A DNA stretch of 21,768 nucleotides from a virus, in IMG/VR virus record IMGVR_UViG_3300034110_000528, positions 1 to 21,768 of that record; one strand, written 5' to 3'. The position numbers and the translations under genes were made by a program. Below are positions 2,457 through 21,717 of the stretch, piece by piece. Numbering within the stretch: position 1 is the first letter of the stretch; every line of letters starts with the position of its first letter. A model generated the notes under the pieces. It was not told where the DNA came from. It was given only the letters and a program-made list of their open reading frames with translations, and did not search any database.

Positions 2457-4538
2457 TTATTTCTCGTTAATTGATAACTGCATGGTGATAGCTTGCAGGT
2501 GAAAAGGTAGCGGTTTGTTGTGTGAGATAACTAAAGGCACTTTGTGCAGATCCTCCCATGTGCCGCCTTCTTCCAGGTGATATCCGGTATATGGTTTACG
2601 TGGTCCCATCAGGTTGTCATCAAAGGTGAATGTTTCGACCAGCTGGCCGTTCAACTGCACACCTAAAGTTTTATTAAAGAAGAATGCCGTCCGATCCACC
2701 TTAGCCTTATGCATCATGCTCGACATTGGACTTTGACTGAGTTCAGGCGGGAATAGTTCCGCTACGCATTCAAACAGCTCTCCAAAGTACAGCGTTTCAT
2801 TGATCAGGCTTGAGTCATCAATCACCAGGTTGTCACCCTCAATCCGGTATTCGATTTCGGTCACTGTGTCATTTTTAACCCAATACGCAGCAATATTTTT
2901 CAGGTGATCGAAGCGTGACTTAACAAGAATGCCGGTATTCAGTTTTATACTGGTCTGAGAATCCACCAAAGCATCAAAAGAGATCTGCTCAAGATAAACA
3001 TTGCCTTTGCGCTCAATCAGCATGTACGCATCATCAGAACCCAACTGAGTGGGCATAGAACAGATACTTTTCACCGATCCACCGAAATCATGCTGCGCCC
3101 ATGCCATAACTTCTTGATCACGGTTAAAGGTAATTGATGCCACCTTGCCATCACCCAGCACTAACCAAACAATTGATTCAGGCTCTTGCTGGTATGAAAT
3201 TTCATTCACGCCCTGGTGCAGCTCACCGATATGTGAAGACAATGCACTGATCTCTGGTGAAACAAGGCCATCCACCTCATAGCGATAGGTCAATGCCCGG
3301 ACACGTTCACCACCACGCTGCACGAATAACAGCTCATTCCCGACCCGCTCAGGACGTGTTACGGAATATGCGCCGTATGCGCTGTGCTCTACAATGTTTA
3401 CTGTGGTCGGTGTCAATCCCCCATCTGAGTCCACCATGAATTCACCACCAGAAGTCAGGCAGATCACCCCGCGCTGTGCTTCTAAAAACAGGATACTGTT
3501 AGACAGACCAGATGCTGAAACAATACTGAATGCATCCGCATCCTCTGTGGTTTCCAGAAAGTTCCCGTTATCCCCTACGGCGCTAAACCAGATTTTGTTC
3601 GGTGCTTTTTTTGTATTGGCAAATACCAGTCGCTGCTTGAAGTAAGTGCAGCAACGCGGATAGCCATCAGACTCATTGAAAGCATGCGGCTGAATGACCC
3701 ATGAGCGTTCAATTGCCTTAATGTCAGCATCCAGTTTTTTGACCACTTCACCACTGACGCTATCACTGTTGTTGAATTTCGTGATCTTGATTAGACCACC
3801 ATTGACCTCTAGATAACGACCAATATCAGCGGCAGAAAACCCCGCGCCACTTGCATTTGGTACCGACACCCAATCACTGACTGATGTAGAAGGCTGTTTG
3901 TTTGTATTTTCTGATGCAGCCTGATAGTACAGCCCTAGATAGGTCACCACATCGCCAGTTAAATAGGTTTGCGTTTCATCCCAGGCAGATACGACATCAA
4001 GGGTGAAATTGACAAATGCACCTAGATCCTTTCCTGAAGGCTTACCCTTACGGAATGGATAACGCGCATTCTCTGAATCAATCGGTGGATGGGTAAACAC
4101 AAAGGCCGAAAGATTCCAGTTATTAAACGTGTCATCACAACGCAATCGCTGTACCGGCACACCATTATGCGTAAGGAACATTTCAAAGCGATACTGCACA
4201 TATTGAATGTCACGGATCTGCGCCGTTGTATAGGGTGAAACAAGCGTGGTAATGACTGTTCTGTTACGTGGGTCGTAGACCGTAATGCTTTGATGGTTGA
4301 AAATCAGTAGATAAACATTGGCCGAGTTCACAATGAATGGAATCAGGCGAATCGATCCACCTTCCATTAGTCCACGATTGAATGTTCCGGGACGCTTGCG
4401 CACACCACCTTCCACCAGTGGGAATAAGTTTTTAATACGCTTTGCGCCGTTGGAATACTGCTGAATATCTGTCCGGGTGTATAACGCTGGTGCCAGCTCC
4501 CCGGCACTAAAGTTATTTTTCATGACAACGGTTTTCAT
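2457..4538 (-). CDS. Tail nozzle protein (tail tubular protein B-like)
   Basis: This 693-residue protein starts MKTVVMKNNFSAGELAPALY. The pattern F-S-A-G-E-L-x-P followed by R-T-D, YxNGxKRIKNL and GGVRKRPGT is the hallmark N-terminus of the podovirus nozzle family. The protein closes the short tail and contacts the fibres. The frame is open upstream to 4652, but the start is placed at 4538 because that ATG shares a base with the adaptor stop (TAATG), has GGAG upstream, and directly precedes the conserved N-terminus. An alternative ATG five codons later lacks a ribosome site. It is followed after one base by the GNAT gene. No defect was seen. Confidence 0.88.
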   Translation of the reverse strand: MKTVVMKNNFSAGELAPALYTRTDIQQYSNGAKRIKNLFPLVEGGVRKRPGTFNRGLMEGGSIRLIPFIVNSANVYLLIFNHQSITVYDPRNRTVITTLVSPYTTAQIRDIQYVQYRFEMFLTHNGVPVQRLRCDDTFNNWNLSAFVFTHPPIDSENARYPFRKGKPSGKDLGAFVNFTLDVVSAWDETQTYLTGDVVTYLGLYYQAASENTNKQPSTSVSDWVSVPNASGAGFSAADIGRYLEVNGGLIKITKFNNSDSVSGEVVKKLDADIKAIERSWVIQPHAFNESDGYPRCCTYFKQRLVFANTKKAPNKIWFSAVGDNGNFLETTEDADAFSIVSASGLSNSILFLEAQRGVICLTSGGEFMVDSDGGLTPTTVNIVEHSAYGAYSVTRPERVGNELLFVQRGGERVRALTYRYEVDGLVSPEISALSSHIGELHQGVNEISYQQEPESIVWLVLGDGKVASITFNRDQEVMAWAQHDFGGSVKSICSMPTQLGSDDAYMLIERKGNVYLEQISFDALVDSQTSIKLNTGILVKSRFDHLKNIAAYWVKNDTVTEIEYRIEGDNLVIDDSSLINETLYFGELFECVAELFPPELSQSPMSSMMHKAKVDRTAFFFNKTLGVQLNGQLVETFTFDDNLMGPRKPYTGYHLEEGGTWEDLHKVPLVISHNKPLPFHLQAITMQLSINEK

Positions 4539-5101
4539 TAGTAGCGCACTCCAATCAGTGAAGATTGATAATCTGCTGCAAAGTCTTGCGCTGGTCGCTC
4601 CTGCCCATTGATTGCACGTGCCTGTTTCAGCATGTTTTGTAGCTTCTGCCATGCGCTATCAGATTCAGACTGACTGCCTGTAATCGGCTTGGCCAGCTTA
4701 TTGATCAGGTACAGCACCATGCACTCACAAAACAATGAATCCCAAATTTCCTCATTATCTTCATCCGCAATGTACTGCAGGTTGATCAGATTGGTATTGG
4801 CGAGAATGTGGCGTGCTTCGACTTCATATTCCTCCACACCAGCACTGATCACACGTAAGAAATCACGTGGCAACGGGAAAGAGTTTTCATAACCAAATGT
4901 CGGATGTGTGGTCACTGGTGCAAGCTGCACTCGTTTTTTCGCAAAGGACCATGGATGCATGCGCAGTAATGCCTTACGTGTGCTGGCATAGATCGAAGCG
5001 CAACGGCGTGCATTCTCTGTATTTTCATCAAATGAAATAATGGATTTAGCGCCGATCTGGCTCAGTGCTTCATTGCAGATAGATACTTCTGTAGTAGACA
5101 T
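4538..5101 (-). CDS. Head-tail adaptor (tail tubular protein A / gp11-like)
   Basis: This 187-residue protein has the family's N-terminal signature: ICNEALSQIGAKSI, then ENTENARRCASIYASTRKALLRMHPWSFAKKR. The segment ALLR-x-H-P-W-x-F-A is the most recognisable part. These adaptors form the ring between the portal and the nozzle. The gene order agrees, with the nozzle gene overlapping its stop by one base. Its start at 5101 is unusual: the ATG follows the T-tract of a minus-strand terminator directly, and its Shine-Dalgarno GAGGG is the 3' arm of that hairpin (see 5102-5136). Translation should therefore depend on readthrough transcripts and on melting of the hairpin. Confidence 0.85.
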   Translation of the reverse strand: MSTTEVSICNEALSQIGAKSIISFDENTENARRCASIYASTRKALLRMHPWSFAKKRVQLAPVTTHPTFGYENSFPLPRDFLRVISAGVEEYEVEARHILANTNLINLQYIADEDNEEIWDSLFCECMVLYLINKLAKPITGSQSESDSAWQKLQNMLKQARAINGQERPAQDFAADYQSSLIGVRY

Positions 5102-5136
5102 AAAAAAGCCCTCAAGTTTTAATGATCTTGAAGGCT
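5102..5136 (-). terminator. Rho-independent terminator overlapping the adaptor RBS
   Basis: Read on the minus strand, AGCCTTCAAG pairs with CTTGAGGGCT (one mismatch) around a 10-base loop, then six T and at once the ATG at 5101. It ends the 144-residue gene unit, and its 3' arm holds the GAGGG ribosome site of the adaptor gene. Confidence 0.8.
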
Positions 5137-5146
5137 TCTTTGGTTA

Positions 5147-5161
5147 GGTTTGTTGGGTGTT
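5147..5161 (-). repeat. 15-base C/A-rich direct repeat, copy 1
   Basis: On the minus strand this reads AACACCCAACAAACC and begins inside the stop codon of the 144-residue gene, just before a terminator. The identical 15 bases recur at 10056-10070 in the same context (stop codon, element, terminator, start codon). It has no G on the transcript strand. Function is unknown. Confidence 0.75.
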
Positions 5162-5594
5162 AGAATAATGCGATGCGTTTCACTAACACATCATGGTATG
5201 CATCCATGTGTTTTTGCTGTTCTTGCAATAAATCCCATTGCTCATCATTAATGAAACTTGGCTGACCTTTATCTAAGAAATTTTCCAGTGCATCGAGCTT
5301 TGTGTACAGTTCGCGCTGTTCAAGTCGAACGCGATCTTGTGGTGTTTGAGATTGATGGTATGACTTTTCAAATACATCACGCGGCGACCAAGATATATAA
5401 CCAACATGACGCTCATCATTTGGTTTGCCACCATCTACGTATTCAACCAGATAACCCTGTTCGCTTGGGTCTTCATTTTCAGGAATCTGACAGCCGCGAT
5501 ATTCATTGTATTCGCCACGTGTCATGGTTGTAGCCAATACAGATTTAGTGCCAATGTATGCGCATAATGCATGTGCTAATAATTTTTTACTCAT
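5160..5594 (-). CDS. Phage protein with crAss001_48-like C-terminal domain
   Basis: This 144-residue protein has two recognisable parts. Residues about 24-75 (TRGEYNEYRGCQIPENE ... EGYLVEYVDGG-type text ... GYISWSPRDVFEKSY) match a short domain widespread in tailed phages, with the sense 'accept this request and use this value' unknown biologically. Residues about 87-143 (RVRLEQRELYTKLDALENFL, then DEQWDLLQEQQKHM and VLVKRI) match the helical crAss001_48-related family. The combination is common in prophages but has no assigned role. The N-terminal 20 residues are mildly hydrophobic, without a clear signal cleavage site. It follows a 33-residue gene by 4 bases, and both lie between two terminators. 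The first-domain match is from recognition of the sequence pattern only. Confidence 0.7.
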   Translation of the reverse strand: MSKKLLAHALCAYIGTKSVLATTMTRGEYNEYRGCQIPENEDPSEQGYLVEYVDGGKPNDERHVGYISWSPRDVFEKSYHQSQTPQDRVRLEQRELYTKLDALENFLDKGQPSFINDEQWDLLQEQQKHMDAYHDVLVKRIALF

Positions 5595-9655: not shown

Positions 9656-10003
9656 TTATTCCTCCACTGAATCCCAGCCGCGATCAGTCAACACGTTTTG
9701 GACACGTTTAACTTCGGCAGTTTGTGATTTAAGTTGCTGTACTGGTGCTGCGGTTTTGCTTTGTGCTTTTGATTGAGCTTCCAGCGCTTTGATCTTTTCT
9801 TCTGCTTCAGCGAGCTTTTGCGCCACGGCATCGAACTGCTCAGCCGGCACAAGTGCATCAGTAGACTGGTCTTGTGATTCATCTTGACCAGTAATGTGCT
9901 CTACCGCTGCATCGGCCTGTTCTGCTGTAGTTGGTTGCGCCGTAGTTTCGACTGCTGGTTCCGGTGTCTTTGCACCTGGTGTACTTACTTTGCGAGCTGC
10001 CAT
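9656..10003 (-). CDS. Hypothetical protein, first gene of the late cassette
   Basis: This 115-residue protein has three parts. Residues 1-50 are disordered and rich in Ala, Thr, Pro, Glu and Gln. Residues about 55-85 form a likely coiled coil (AEQFDAVAQKLAEAEEKIKAL). The short conserved-looking end is QNVLTDRGWDSVEE. No family is recognised. The ATG at 10003 directly follows the seven-T tract of a terminator, and the only ribosome site, AGGG, is part of the hairpin. It is the first gene after that terminator and leads into the gp7.3-like and portal genes. It may be a head-completion or structural accessory protein, but this is a guess. Confidence 0.6.
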   Translation of the reverse strand: MAARKVSTPGAKTPEPAVETTAQPTTAEQADAAVEHITGQDESQDQSTDALVPAEQFDAVAQKLAEAEEKIKALEAQSKAQSKTAAPVQQLKSQTAEVKRVQNVLTDRGWDSVEE

Positions 10004-10033
10004 AAAAAAACCCTATCGTTGGTTGATAGGGTT
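10004..10033 (-). terminator. Terminator between early and late genes, overlapping the RBS
   Basis: On the minus strand AACCCTATC pairs perfectly with GATAGGGTT (9 pairs) around a 7-base loop. A seven-T tract begins within the end of the stem and runs straight into the ATG at 10003. It ends the early operon after the 119-residue gene and hides the AGGG ribosome site of the first late gene. Confidence 0.87.
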
Positions 10034-10055: not shown

Positions 10056-10070
10056 GGTTTGTTGGGTGTT
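10056..10070 (-). repeat. 15-base C/A-rich direct repeat, copy 2
   Basis: This is identical on the minus strand (AACACCCAACAAACC) to 5147-5161 and again begins in the stop codon of the upstream gene. The following stretch to 10034 stays C-rich and repeats the octamer AACACCCA. The element sits 23 bases before the terminator at 10004-10033. Confidence 0.75.
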
Positions 10071-10429
10071 TAATCCAATGATCTTGGGTTTATGTTTACT
10101 TGATTGTCATATTCGTGAAATCCCTCTATAGCAAACCCAAAATATACAGCCCAAACATGATGGTCTATAAGCACCCTACCAAAGCCAAAAACCTCCTTTT
10201 TATGCCAATCAATATTTTTTCTCGACGGCGTTTCAAATGTTGGTAGGTATCTTATTGGAGATTTTTTGCAATGAGCTAAATACTGAAACAGTCGCATCAT
10301 TTCACGACATGAGTTTTCAGAATGACAAATTACCATCACTTTCTCGCTTGCTGACAATTCAAGCGCCTCTTCCAATAACCTTGTGCTACGACCTGAACCA
10401 CGTGCATGCATTTCAATATAATTTTTCAT
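10070..10429 (-). CDS. Small P-loop-like protein of unknown function
   Basis: This 119-residue protein is markedly more AT-rich than its neighbours. Residues 9-16 read ARGSGRST, close to a Walker A loop (GxGKS/T) but with Arg for Lys, and a helix (RLLEEALELS) and a strand (KVMVICHSE) follow, as in P-loop NTPases. Near residue 85 the sequence RVLIDHHVW could serve as a Walker B strand ending in Asp. The protein is too short for a helicase or a terminase. Small phage proteins of this RGSG-[KR]-[ST]-T type are known but have no assigned role. It is the last gene before the early/late terminator. The different base composition suggests separate acquisition. Confidence 0.55.
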   Translation of the reverse strand: MKNYIEMHARGSGRSTRLLEEALELSASEKVMVICHSENSCREMMRLFQYLAHCKKSPIRYLPTFETPSRKNIDWHKKEVFGFGRVLIDHHVWAVYFGFAIEGFHEYDNQVNINPRSLD

Positions 10430-10580: not shown

Positions 10581-10749
10581 GAAATACCCCCTCTACAGCA
10601 GTGAACTCCTTTCCGCTTTCATCCGTCGCAGTAATAATTTTTAATCCACTACGACGGCCAATATCTACTTTTACAATGGTTAGCTTGCCTTGTGGTTTCC
10701 AGCATGGACTGTCGTGCGTTACTGTTTGGCCAACCTTAAAATCTCTCAC
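10570..10749 (-). CDS. 59-residue small protein with a GTG start
   Basis: The start is GTG at 10749, which overlaps the TGA of the preceding helix-turn-helix gene (GTGA), so translation is probably coupled. The sequence begins RDFKVGQTVTHDSPCWKPQ after the initiator and continues with alternating strands (LTIVKVDI, LKIITATDESGKEF), suggesting a small beta-barrel of SH3 or KOW type. No family is certain. An SH3-like fold would fit nucleic-acid or protein binding, but nothing shows this directly. Confidence 0.6.
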   Translation of the reverse strand: MRDFKVGQTVTHDSPCWKPQGKLTIVKVDIGRRSGLKIITATDESGKEFTAVEGVFHAT

Positions 10750-11198
10750 AACCCTAACTCCCGATCCAACTCATCAATGACCTGATCACACAGGCCGCCG
10801 TCTTCAAAAATATCCATCTGGCCAATCTTGTACTTGTATGTGGCCCACTCGCCTTCCAGTGGGTAGCGCACAATGCCCGTCTCTGTTTGCCAGAGCATGA
10901 TGAAGGCGTGGCCGTTGTCATAGTTCGGTACACCACCACGCGCCCATTCTGAAACTGTAGAAGCACCGGACACCGGCAGAACGTCTGCAATCTTTTCGTG
11001 TGTCCAGCCGCATTTGCCTAAGTCCAGAATCATTCGATTGAAGTCCGGACGTTTGTAATTTCGAAGTTTTAACTTGAACTCTTTGACCTTCTTTTTGGTA
11101 TGCAGATTGATAAAACGCGCGCGCGCGCGAGGGTCGTTCGTATAAACCCCCTCTCCACACTCACCACCGACCAGTTGCAGCCCCATAGAACTTCCCAT
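10746..11198 (-). CDS. Helix-turn-helix protein in the late-regulator position
   Basis: I place the start at ATG 11198 (AGGGG 5 bases upstream), giving 150 residues; a GTG at 11216 in the same frame would add six. Residues about 56-90 hold a helix-turn-helix: NRMILDLGKCGWTHEKIADV followed by SGASTVSEWARGGVPN, where the second helix fits a recognition helix. The C-terminal half (GHAFIMLWQTETG...) is not diagnostic. Lambdoid phages often place an antiterminator or late activator after rusA, and a terminator stands between this gene and the late cassette, so a role in late gene control is a reasonable inference. It has no zinc finger typical of Q proteins. A (CG)7 run lies inside the gene. Confidence 0.6.
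   Translation of the reverse strand: MGSSMGLQLVGGECGEGVYTNDPRARARFINLHTKKKVKEFKLKLRNYKRPDFNRMILDLGKCGWTHEKIADVLPVSGASTVSEWARGGVPNYDNGHAFIMLWQTETGIVRYPLEGEWATYKYKIGQMDIFEDGGLCDQVIDELDRELGL
11116..11129. repeat. (CG)7 dinucleotide run
   Basis: Seven uninterrupted CG units lie in the coding region of the helix-turn-helix gene and encode an Arg-Ala-Arg-Ala stretch. Slippage by one unit would shift the frame early in the protein. Confidence 0.9.
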
Positions 11199-11217
11199 AG
11201 CAACCCCTATATTCACT

Positions 11218-17352: not shown

Positions 17353-19125
17353 ATGAACGCTCAACTACAAAACAACCGCCCTGCTAACCCTGTTGCTTCA
17401 TTCAATGCTTTCATGCAGAAGCATAAAAGCCAGTTAGAACTTGCCCTACCTAAGCATTTAAATGCGGATCGTATGGTACGTCTTTCTCTGACTGCATTCA
17501 GTCAAAACCCAGCTTTGCAGAGATGCGATCCTAAGACTATTTTTGGCAGCATCATTGTAGCTTCACAGCTTGGCCTTGAAATTGGTGTGAATGGCCAAGG
17601 CTACCTTGTTCCATACAAAGACAAATGTACTTTTGTTCCTGGCTGGAAGGGTCTCGTAGATCTGGCCAACCGCGGCGGTCGTTGCACAGTCTGGACTGGT
17701 GCCGTTTATGAAGGTGATGAGTTTGATTACATGCTTGGTGATTCACCTTACTGTAAGCACAAACCTTGTGGTGAGTTTGAAGAATCAAAATTAACTCACG
17801 TCTATGCAATTGGCCGTGTAAAAGACTCGGAAATGCCTGTAATTGAAGTTTGGCCAATCAAGAAAGTGCATGCTCATTTCAAGAAAACTGTTGTACCGGC
17901 ACTACAGTCAAACCATTACAGCAAAAAACATCTTGAAGCGTATGCCAAGAAAGTAGCCCTACTCCAAGTTTTAAAATACATGCCGCAGTCAATTGAAATG
18001 TCGAATGCTGTAGATGTTTCTTATGCAGCTGAGCAAGGTAAAGGAATTACGATTGATGGTGATTTTGTGTCTGTAGATAACAGCCCTCAAGATCTACAAC
18101 AAGAGCAAGATGTCCAAAACTCAACACAAAATGAGGTGAATCATTACCAGGAACAAACTAGCCAAGAAGTTCAAACATTTGATCAGGAAGAAGTCGTATA
18201 TGCGCCAAGCTTTGAACAAATCAAGAAAGGTATTTTGACCGCCAAATCAGTGGTTCACCTTGAAGTAATTGAAGAACAGGCACTGGATCATGCAGATAGC
18301 GCTGAACGCAAGCACCTAATGACACTGATCAAAGCTCAATACCAGAAATTTCAAGCTGCGGAGGTAACTGCTGCAAAAAAGTCTGAGCCTGAACAGGCAG
18401 CAGAACCACCAGTAGAAAAGCCAAAAAAGAAAACTAATGTAGTTGAAGATGCCGTAAATAAAAGTCAAAGCCTGATTAACCTTTGGCAGACTCGCTCTAA
18501 AGATGAACCTACTCAAGGGAATCTGGCTAGCCTAGAAGCAAGCATTAACCATAATTTTGACAAGCTAACAGGTCAACATAAGGAACTTGCAGAAAAGATT
18601 TTAGAAAGCTTCCGTAAACGTGTTGAACCAGTTAAGGAAGTAGAACCAGCTACAGATAACGGCATAAGCGTTGATGAATTGAAGCGCCTGCAACAAGAAG
18701 CTGAAGCACTGGTACAGCAAAAGAAACAGCTGGCACCTGCTGAATTACGCAGAGCTTACGCCAAAGCACTAAACCAAGCCAAGTCGCTAGCTGATGTACT
18801 GGATATCGAAGAACAGATCGAAAATGACAGTGCTTTAAATCAGGGTGATGCAAAGTATCTAGCAGACAACATTGAGCAAGTACGCGGCAAGTTTGAGGCA
18901 TCACAAGCGCCAGCTGTAGATCCTCTCAAAAGTGGGTCAGTTAAAAGCGGTCTTATCCTACTGATCTCTGATGCCAAGAACGGTGAAGATCTTCGACAAG
19001 TCGCCCAGCAAATGAATGCAGCGAAGCCGAACTTGACCAGTGAGCATCAACAGGAATTACTGCAAGCCTACCAGCAAAAAAAGAAATTGATCGAAGATCA
19101 GATGGATATGTTCCCAAATAAATAA
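17353..19125 (+). CDS. recT: RecT-like single-strand annealing protein with long C-terminal repeat region
   Basis: This 590-residue protein is about twice the usual RecT length. Residues about 15-225 are the RecT core: LTAFSQNPALQRCDPKTIFG, GLEIGVNGQGYLVPYKDKCT, VPGWKGLVDLANRGGRCTVW and the conserved C-terminal helix AYAKKVALLQVLKYMPQS. It anneals the 3' tails made by the RecE-like nuclease. Residues 240-285 are an acidic Gln-rich linker. From about 286 on I see four helical modules of similar pattern (286-335, 366-424, 440-516, 527-583), joined by Pro/Lys/Glu-rich linkers. The end QMDMF (583-587) resembles a sliding-clamp-binding pentapeptide. The ribosome site is AGGA 10 bases upstream. The frame is intact throughout, so the length is not a fusion artefact. 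Confidence 0.87.
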   Translation: MNAQLQNNRPANPVASFNAFMQKHKSQLELALPKHLNADRMVRLSLTAFSQNPALQRCDPKTIFGSIIVASQLGLEIGVNGQGYLVPYKDKCTFVPGWKGLVDLANRGGRCTVWTGAVYEGDEFDYMLGDSPYCKHKPCGEFEESKLTHVYAIGRVKDSEMPVIEVWPIKKVHAHFKKTVVPALQSNHYSKKHLEAYAKKVALLQVLKYMPQSIEMSNAVDVSYAAEQGKGITIDGDFVSVDNSPQDLQQEQDVQNSTQNEVNHYQEQTSQEVQTFDQEEVVYAPSFEQIKKGILTAKSVVHLEVIEEQALDHADSAERKHLMTLIKAQYQKFQAAEVTAAKKSEPEQAAEPPVEKPKKKTNVVEDAVNKSQSLINLWQTRSKDEPTQGNLASLEASINHNFDKLTGQHKELAEKILESFRKRVEPVKEVEPATDNGISVDELKRLQQEAEALVQQKKQLAPAELRRAYAKALNQAKSLADVLDIEEQIENDSALNQGDAKYLADNIEQVRGKFEASQAPAVDPLKSGSVKSGLILLISDAKNGEDLRQVAQQMNAAKPNLTSEHQQELLQAYQQKKKLIEDQMDMFPNK

Positions 19126-20209: not shown

Positions 20210-21473
20210 CTTCAAAGTTAATATTCTTGGATGCGGCAAATTGGGCCTTGAGCTCGTCGCAATAATCCGACCATCTTTGCATCATCTTGCGTCTTTTATC
20301 TAAATGTTTTGTACGGTTATATGCCCTGCCGTGCATGTCACGCACCTGGTGCGCAAGTTGCTGTTCAATAATATCCAGTGGAAATTCCAGAACTTCATCC
20401 AATAAGGTACGTGCAATTGCTCTGAATCCGTGACCGGTCATATCTTCTTTGCCATATCCCATACGGCGCAAGGCCATATTAATAGACATATCAGAAATCG
20501 GACGGTGCTTGTCTGAACGTGATGGAAAAACAAATTCTGAGTTATTCGTAAAATTATAAGCTTCTTTTAGAATCGAAATGGCCTGAGTGGATAAAGGCAC
20601 AATATGATCAAGGCCAGTTTTGGCAGAAGTTTTCGACGGCGTATAAGACCATGTGGCATTATCAAAATCAATATCAGCCCATTTTGCTGCACGCAGTTCA
20701 CCGATCCGGACAAATACCAGCGGTGCCAGCTGCAGTGCAAACTTCACATGAACCAGTTGGGATTCATAATTATCAATATCAAAAAGCAGTCGGGCAAAAT
20801 CAAACGGATCTGTCAGTGCAGAATAGTGCTGTTTTTCTCTCTGGGTAATTGTGCCGGCCAGATCCTGCGCAATATCTCTTTCACATAATCCCATCTTTAC
20901 GGCAAATCGGAATACCTGTGATGCTTTTGACCTGATCCGCATGGCCGATTCGATATAGCCCTTGTTTTCATCCTTCTCAATTACTTTGGCCAGATCACGC
21001 GGAGTAATTTCAGAAATTGGCATATTGCCAATATCTCGATAAAGTTTTTCAAAAATACGTTCATTACGGGTAACGGTAGCTTCAGCCAGACGCTGTTTAC
21101 TTTTATAGAGCTCAGATACTGATTTAAAAGTAGCCTGTTGTTTCAGTCGCTCTTTTTCTTCCACACCCTGTTTTTCTGCCTGTGGATCTTTTCCGGCAGC
21201 AATCAATGCCCGGAACTGGTCGCGATATTCCCGCGCTTTGGCCAAAGACATAGCTGGATAAGTCCCGACCGTCATCGTATTTCTTTTTTTTGCAATCGGA
21301 CGTGTGTAGTCAAAACGCCACATTACAGTACCGTTTTTACGAATTAGAAGATTCAGACCAGCACCATCACTGAGACGAATATCCTTCTCTAAGCCGTTGG
21401 GATTGCTATTTTTTACGTCTCGAAGGAATGCTTTGATTTTGCTGTCTGTAAGCGAAATTACTTGCTTTGGCAT
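20193..21473 (-). CDS. int: P4-type tyrosine integrase
   Basis: This 426-residue protein has the three usual parts. Residues 5-95 are the arm-binding domain (LSDGAGLNLLIRKNGTVMWR, then MTVGTYPAMSLAKAREY). About 115-205 are the SAM-like core-binding domain. The catalytic domain is 215-400, with R256 in VRIGELRAAKW, H348 and R351 in HGFRAI, H375 in QQLAHQ and Y385 in GRAYNR. It integrates and, with an excisionase, excises the prophage. The neighbouring tRNA-Arg fits the target choice of this family. The ATG at 21473 has only a distant AGGTG upstream. Inverted repeats 6 to 69 bases before the start may bind integrase or a regulator. Confidence 0.93.
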   Translation of the reverse strand: MPKQVISLTDSKIKAFLRDVKNSNPNGLEKDIRLSDGAGLNLLIRKNGTVMWRFDYTRPIAKKRNTMTVGTYPAMSLAKAREYRDQFRALIAAGKDPQAEKQGVEEKERLKQQATFKSVSELYKSKQRLAEATVTRNERIFEKLYRDIGNMPISEITPRDLAKVIEKDENKGYIESAMRIRSKASQVFRFAVKMGLCERDIAQDLAGTITQREKQHYSALTDPFDFARLLFDIDNYESQLVHVKFALQLAPLVFVRIGELRAAKWADIDFDNATWSYTPSKTSAKTGLDHIVPLSTQAISILKEAYNFTNNSEFVFPSRSDKHRPISDMSINMALRRMGYGKEDMTGHGFRAIARTLLDEVLEFPLDIIEQQLAHQVRDMHGRAYNRTKHLDKRRKMMQRWSDYCDELKAQFAASKNINFEEKKPS

Positions 21474-21641: not shown

Positions 21642-21670
21642 TGGTGCGCTCAGCGGGACTCGAACCCACG
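21642..21670 (-). other. Candidate attachment site core in the tRNA 3' end
   Basis: The T-arm, acceptor end and CCA of tRNA-Arg face the integrase gene. P4-type integrases commonly recombine within such a tRNA 3' segment, which the prophage end then restores. The second copy, expected at the other end of the prophage, is outside the window, so the limits of the core cannot be set. Confidence 0.5.
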
Positions 21671-21717
21671 CCACAGGCTTCGGAGACCTGTACTCTATCC
21701 AGTTGAGCTATGAGCGC
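21642..21717 (-). tRNA. tRNA-Arg (anticodon CCG)
   Basis: On the minus strand GCGCTCA and TGAGCGC form a perfect 7-pair acceptor stem, followed by discriminator A and an encoded CCA. The D-arm is TAGCTCAACTGGATAGAG, the anticodon loop is CTCCGAA (anticodon CCG, U33 present) and the T-arm contains GGTTCGAGTCCC. It is intact at 76 bases. Its 3' end points at the integrase, so it is probably the integration target. Confidence 0.95.

Follow-up and report, generated by a model that had tools for sequence, protein, structure and literature searches.

A short G-free element accompanies predicted intrinsic terminators ahead of late genes in Acinetobacter podovirus-like phages

Among described regulatory systems, N/nut, Q/qut, put, RfaH/ops and the RNA polymerase-binding aptamers (RAPs) are nearest in logic to the element characterized here, and none of them sets one constant, unpaired 13-mer next to every late terminator. 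In the lambda-type Q/N systems (nut, qut, tR′), as in the phages considered here, a temperate phage keeps its late genes behind a terminator that must be read through, and a small regulatory gene lies just before the late region. The known antiterminators N and Q are processive and need no site at each terminator; lambda has one loading site near the promoter, whereas here a site is present at each terminator. Unlike lambda nut, the Acinetobacter element (hereafter the tag) is unpaired, has no boxB hairpin and is not boxA-like in sequence, and the candidate regulator that accompanies it, a protein of family phrog_17493, matches no named antiterminator family. The put element of phage HK022 is likewise a cis-acting element of nascent phage RNA; however, put is structured, acts on polymerase alone and serves early operons (PMC9378689), whereas the tag is a short stretch without pairing that recurs at late terminators. 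The inhibitory RAPs of E. coli are also short nascent RNAs acting in cis on elongation, in their case by promoting Rho-dependent termination (PMC5865726), but RAPs are scattered, while the tag is one fixed sequence placed by intrinsic terminators in one phage group. RfaH/ops is similar in having a short repeat through which an elongation factor could be recruited; ops, however, is recognized as DNA, within the leaders of operons, and no NusG-like protein was identified with the tag. We found no description of the tag in Rfam or in the open-access full-text literature searched, outside which most subscription papers lie, so novelty is not proven; a text search of the same literature with a 12-mer returned unrelated papers only.

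The window analyzed here is a 21.8-kb IMG/VR phage record whose relatives are temperate Acinetobacter phages and prophages. Its minus strand, which carries all of the genes, tags and terminators located below, contains the 15-mer AACACCCAACAAACC (core YACCCAACAAACC) exactly twice, at 10070-10056 (site 1) and 5161-5147 (site 2). These coordinates and the two-site layout had been reported correctly in the initial annotation, and the anatomy it described is borne out at both sites: each copy begins in a stop codon, each precedes a predicted terminator whose U-tract runs straight into an ATG (at 10003 and 5101) with the ribosome site in the hairpin 3′ arm, and the two hairpins are unlike in sequence. 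At site 1, the first base of the tag copy is the last base of the TAA ending a variable accessory ORF (10070-10429; 119 aa, no family match), and the predicted intrinsic terminator hairpin with its U-tract (10004-10033; fold -12.1 kcal/mol, z -5.0) leads into the first late gene (9656-10003; 115 aa, phrog_11993), with portal/connector genes next. At site 2, the first base is the second base of the TAA of an accessory gene (5160-5594) whose product has a C-terminal crAss001_48 domain (PF21825), and the predicted intrinsic terminator (5102-5141; fold -18.0 kcal/mol, z -6.2) leads into a tail adaptor, or tail tubular A-type, gene (4538-5101; phrog_394, E 4e-59). Both structures have the architecture of an intrinsic terminator, a G+C-rich hairpin followed directly by a U-tract; the sequences GAGGG and TAGGG sit in their 3′ arms, about 8 nt ahead of the ATG, and the 15-mer is unpaired in RNA folding of both sites. 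A homolog of the accessory ORF at 5160-5594 in Acinetobacter phage 4316 is annotated DUF2829 and there adjoins the same tail module without the tag.

Inexact matches to the 15-mer occur at two more places in the window, with 2-3 mismatches and both within genes, where chance alone would give about 0.8 places at ≤3 mismatches. Copies with 1-3 mismatches inside scaffold and tail genes were rejected as probable codon coincidences: their synonymous positions vary and they have no terminator. With Rfam models at gathering score, the sole match in the window was a tRNA at 21645-21717, and the tag matched none.

Beyond the window, the core YACCCAACAAACC lies 5-22 nt upstream of a predicted intrinsic terminator hairpin in Acinetobacter podovirus-like phages and prophages, carried by IMG/VR contigs, bacterial genomes and the independently deposited phages TPWB-05, Piluca and MD-2021a, which have it with variants. 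Complete relatives hold up to five tag-terminator units per genome on the late strand, ahead of the first late gene, the tail adaptor, the pilot protein, the terminase small subunit and the holin; only the first two units fall in the window because the late region is cut off by the end of the contig. In most related phages the tag is kept at the adaptor leader, and the element sits at the same place in the relatives searched as it does here, an arrangement whose absence the initial annotation had named as a refutation. A plain 15-mer scan of genome contigs gave mostly chance matches, and among the matches listed in the IMG/VR scan, chance hits accompanied a clear group with the 15-mer, a short spacer, a terminator and a start codon. 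The composite pattern ACCCAACAAACC-N28-58-TTTTTATG retrieved 106 stretches; the contexts read among them were nearly all late-gene leaders of the Acinetobacter phage group, with a few likely chance occurrences.

The tag is tightly coupled to terminators. Across 20 genomes, every exact core (50/50) had a terminator within 33 nt downstream, against a mean of 0.4 such cases for permuted cores, one permutation of which reached 16. Tagged terminators (core with ≤2 mismatches) lay on the late strand in 68 of 69 cases from 17 genomes. We also extracted leaders upstream of homologous genes, calling terminators by threshold and allowing the core ≤2 mismatches. The five genes listed above yielded 145 unique leaders, 123 with a terminator and 107 with a core upstream of that terminator, counts that are not fully independent given that the genomes are related. 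By gene, the tag was present in 18 of the 20 terminator-containing leaders of the first late gene, 31 of 38 for the adaptor, 17 of 22 for the terminase small subunit and 13 of 14 for the holin. The pilot gene provides a natural experiment, with the tag in 28 of 29 leaders that have a terminator and in 0 of 16 that lack one (P ~3e-11). In contrast, the leaders of eight other late genes (portal, scaffold, capsid, tail B, terminase large, gp15-like, gp16-like and lysozyme) had a terminator or core in 0 of 269 unique sequences. Independence of the evidence comes from the five unrelated gene boundaries and from leaders with distinct flanks (58 non-redundant). On the terminator coupling in 20 genomes and the leader counts, a chance origin of the tag was rejected.

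Within the 58 flank-distinct sites, information is confined to a Y plus 12 positions, Y-ACCCAACAAACC, and the flanks are near background; as these sites were selected at ≤3 mismatches, core conservation is partly by construction, whereas this selection does not account for the sharp edges or the preceding Y. The spacer between tag and hairpin is nearly fixed in length at each site (22, 5-10, 11-13, 6-11 and 5-6 nt) and contains 5% G and 32% C, compared with 20% G and 15% C upstream. What the sites have in common is the tag and this G-poor, C/A-rich spacer; the hairpins differ, changing in sequence while keeping their pairing, as at site 2 across lineages. Hairpin diversity is greatest at the adaptor, where the tag is kept. 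Two divergent prophages, G091 and G114, have their own variant, ACCCAACC(A/G)AA, common to their sites. One sequence per phage lineage across unrelated boundaries is as predicted by a shared reader; repeated recombination between sites could also give this pattern.

These comparisons refine the module first described in the window. The element is indeed repeated and G-free, but the conserved unit is shorter than the 15-mer, since the two bases before the Y vary and are mostly A/T. Overlap with a stop codon, real at both window sites, is incidental to the module, as in TPWB-05 and L319 what precedes the tag is another terminator and not a gene. Four of the five boundaries share the run of the U-tract into the ATG; at the holin, 19-29 nt separate hairpin and start codon. 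The proposal of a phage-specific module tied to late-gene terminators, on the other hand, is supported by both the relatives and a comparison with host genomes. Among 149 Acinetobacter genomes, the exact 15-mer is found in 8, with 11 copies in all, 10 of them ahead of phage-type terminator leaders. Where core matches in hosts were viewed in context, no terminator followed, and none of 95 host terminators in 320 kb of host chromosome had a core (≤2 mismatches). An origin as a host element was rejected because the 15-mer is rare in hosts, its copies are mostly in phage-type leaders and core and terminator are not paired there. Pairing of the whole core with rRNA, tRNA or antisense RNA was also rejected, as both-strand searches of hosts and phages gave no consistent complement. 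Given that the element exists, is conserved, goes with terminators, is specific to phages and, as described below, stands where readthrough is needed, the tag is very probably a real, terminator-linked control element.

Start codons lie ≤12 nt from the hairpin at four of the five boundaries. With the U-tract leading straight into the ATG there, a promoter would have no room behind the terminator, and RNA polymerase must therefore pass the hairpins for the virion to be made. A scan for promoter-like consensus sites on the late strand found none in the window between ~9,900 and 14,450, a scan that misses other promoter types and leaves intragenic promoters possible. The initial annotation had proposed that the element may be a loading site for an antitermination or Rho-type factor and that the late genes are expressed only on readthrough transcripts; the anatomy of four boundaries implies the readthrough, whereas loading of such a factor, or dependence of readthrough on the element, would go beyond what that anatomy says. 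One predicted strong terminator of the same operon, behind the capsid gene (5754-5723), is tag-free and conserved in relatives, and this internal contrast counts against an antiterminating role for the tag. The post-capsid terminator may limit transcription past the capsid gene.

We find it plausible, if a little short of probable, that the tag is a cis-acting element of nascent RNA through which a trans factor lets polymerase pass the terminators in the lytic phase. Each tag YACCCAACAAACC would form one unit with the adjacent downstream terminator, with up to five such units, one per late-module boundary. As polymerase reached the terminator, the unpaired tag and G-poor spacer would be in the newly made RNA just 5′ of the hairpin, close to the polymerase's RNA exit channel, where a trans-acting factor made in lytic growth would most likely read the tag so that polymerase passes. 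Late genes would then be silent or weakly expressed early and in the lysogen, with expression released during lytic growth. The phrog_17493 protein might be this factor, perhaps aided by a host protein such as NusA. We infer here that the tag is recognized as RNA, in which direction it acts and what reads it. More doubtful is that a phage-encoded HTH protein reads the tag locally, terminator by terminator, in place of a one-time modification of polymerase as at nut/qut; HTH proteins usually bind DNA, which counts against an RNA-reading member of this class, and the processive action of N and Q likewise speaks against an antiterminator with a site at every terminator. If antitermination through the tag is true, it would make a late-gene regulatory code readable from sequence in a large Acinetobacter prophage group, with five tagged stops in one operon, and would explain how essential virion genes can stand behind seemingly strong terminators. 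A tag that controls readthrough would also be a compact, portable terminator switch and allow a direct test of local versus processive antitermination.

The same features could serve the opposite outcome. C/A-rich, G-poor RNA beside a hairpin may help Rho, NusA or polymerase itself to stop, so that the tag would strengthen termination, insulate prophage late genes and grade expression along the operon, comparable to inhibitory RNA polymerase-binding aptamers. Tag and spacer are G-poor, C-rich and unpaired and lie in untranslated RNA just past stop codons, and the inhibitory RAPs of E. coli provide a precedent for action in cis via Rho (PMC5865726). Rut sites are C-rich, G-poor, unstructured RNAs that span tens of nucleotides and have a loose sequence; tag plus spacer is C-rich and G-poor, measures ~17-35 nt and includes the nearly invariant 13-mer. 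The specificity of that 13-mer exceeds what Rho is known to prefer. The tag is not used by terminators of the host or by other phage terminators, and essential late genes must still be expressed beyond these stops. We consider a role in promoting termination unlikely.

For antitermination, the candidate reader in the window is a 156-aa basic HTH protein of family phrog_17493 (10746-11216), encoded late in the early operon and put forward on co-occurrence. Proteins of this family have 135-160 aa, a basic N-terminal half and an HTH core, and are encoded late in the early region; the gene lies just upstream of the late operon, the location expected of a Q-type late antiterminator. It is the sole non-structural gene present in 19 of the 19 tag-bearing podovirus genomes compared, the partly covered G010 being set aside, and it is found in 11 of 11 Acinetobacter genomes with the tag-terminator-ATG unit, compared with 26 of 149 overall. 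Such co-occurrence is weak evidence, since tag and phrog_17493 gene sit together in the same prophages and are thereby linked. Among 369 gammaproteobacterial genomes, phrog_17493 was found in one, the Acinetobacter genome used as the center. The protein gave no hit in a Pfam scan and no PDB sequence match. Its predicted fold (pLDDT 60) has Cro/CI-type HTH domains as the best rows of the Foldseek list, with Z <6; a Q-type antiterminator is absent from that list, which for a low-confidence model excludes nothing.

Other Acinetobacter phages, of 36-48 kb and without phrog_17493, have the tag at one terminator among 17-30, nearly always within a cassette, holin or other, that these phages share along with its hairpin. 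These phrog_17493-free carriers include G571, G565, G562, G010 and G182, with exact copies in G571, G010 and G182, and because of them such tag copies are either hitchhikers or read by a host factor. A drift test was not significant (P 0.07). In G155 C13, G160 C25, G062 C1 and similar Acinetobacter genomes, two phrog_17493 family genes lie ~4-13 kb apart, often one of them with an internal stop; no tagged terminator was found near such paired genes in the two regions scanned (G155, G160).

A short, distant homolog of phrog_17493 also lies just before the late genes of Yersinia phages YeP4-6. YeP5 (L436), the phage of this set that was examined, carries a repeat of its own, CGGGAAACCGAACGC, at 17986, 21380, 21492 and 33053, with one copy upstream of the first late gene, two upstream of the capsid gene and one upstream of a terminase-small-like gene. 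Of these late-strand copies, two are exact, one has 1 mismatch and one has 3; both strands together give 6 matches against 1.3 expected, and one copy is followed by a terminator and ATG. As a single case, YeP5 hints that repeat and homolog may be a matched protein-element pair. That its copies of CGGGAAACCGAACGC are not always with a terminator, together with the YeP4-6 homolog and the HTH core in the phrog_17493 model, would also suit a tag that is a double-stranded DNA operator, bound by this protein as a late activator or at-a-distance antiterminator. We think this improbable: the tag is non-palindromic, always in sense orientation and always beside a terminator, the tag-hairpin distances of 5-22 nt do not fit one helical face, and the window late strand has no promoter-like site between 9,900 and 14,450.

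Slightly less probable again is a role in translation, with the tag as an unstructured ribosome standby site or S1-binding enhancer for starts whose Shine-Dalgarno sequence is held in a hairpin. The window sites invite such a reading, with the Shine-Dalgarno sequence in the 3′ arm, the ATG after the U-tract and a C/A-rich, unpaired stretch adjoining the hairpin. However, the tag is equally kept at the holin, where Shine-Dalgarno sequence and ATG lie 19-29 nt beyond the hairpin; the U-tract, unneeded for standby, is kept everywhere; and standby asks for an absence of structure, not for an exact sequence. Least probable, by a small margin, is a module seam without regulatory role, a short homology for exchange of accessory genes between late modules: variable accessory genes do end at the tag, which abuts the preceding terminator's T-tract in L319 and TPWB-05, and tag and terminator appear to have been transferred together into cassettes, lysis and others, of other phages, but a seam does not require the terminator pairing seen in 50 of 50 cases, and in G012 the tag persists between the pilot and terminase genes without an accessory gene.

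Several arrangements of the unit in individual phages are of separate interest. In L319, L348, L349, L360 and TPWB-05 (L291, ~20800-20900), the tag comes directly after the T-tract of the preceding terminator, as if the accessory genes present in other phages were precisely absent. L504 has a holin-type terminator leader twice, at 35-64 and 490-519, ~455 nt apart, with one exact core and one decayed. In other Acinetobacter phages (L501, L503, L509, L514 and L517), the same holin-type terminator with tag variant CACACAACAAAGC stands before a different gene, as if tag and terminator had moved as one piece. Finally, Alcaligenes phage Piluca (L290) has Alcaligenes faecalis as its recorded host, a host label that may be unusual, and shares an identical first-late-gene leader with Acinetobacter phage MD-2021a.
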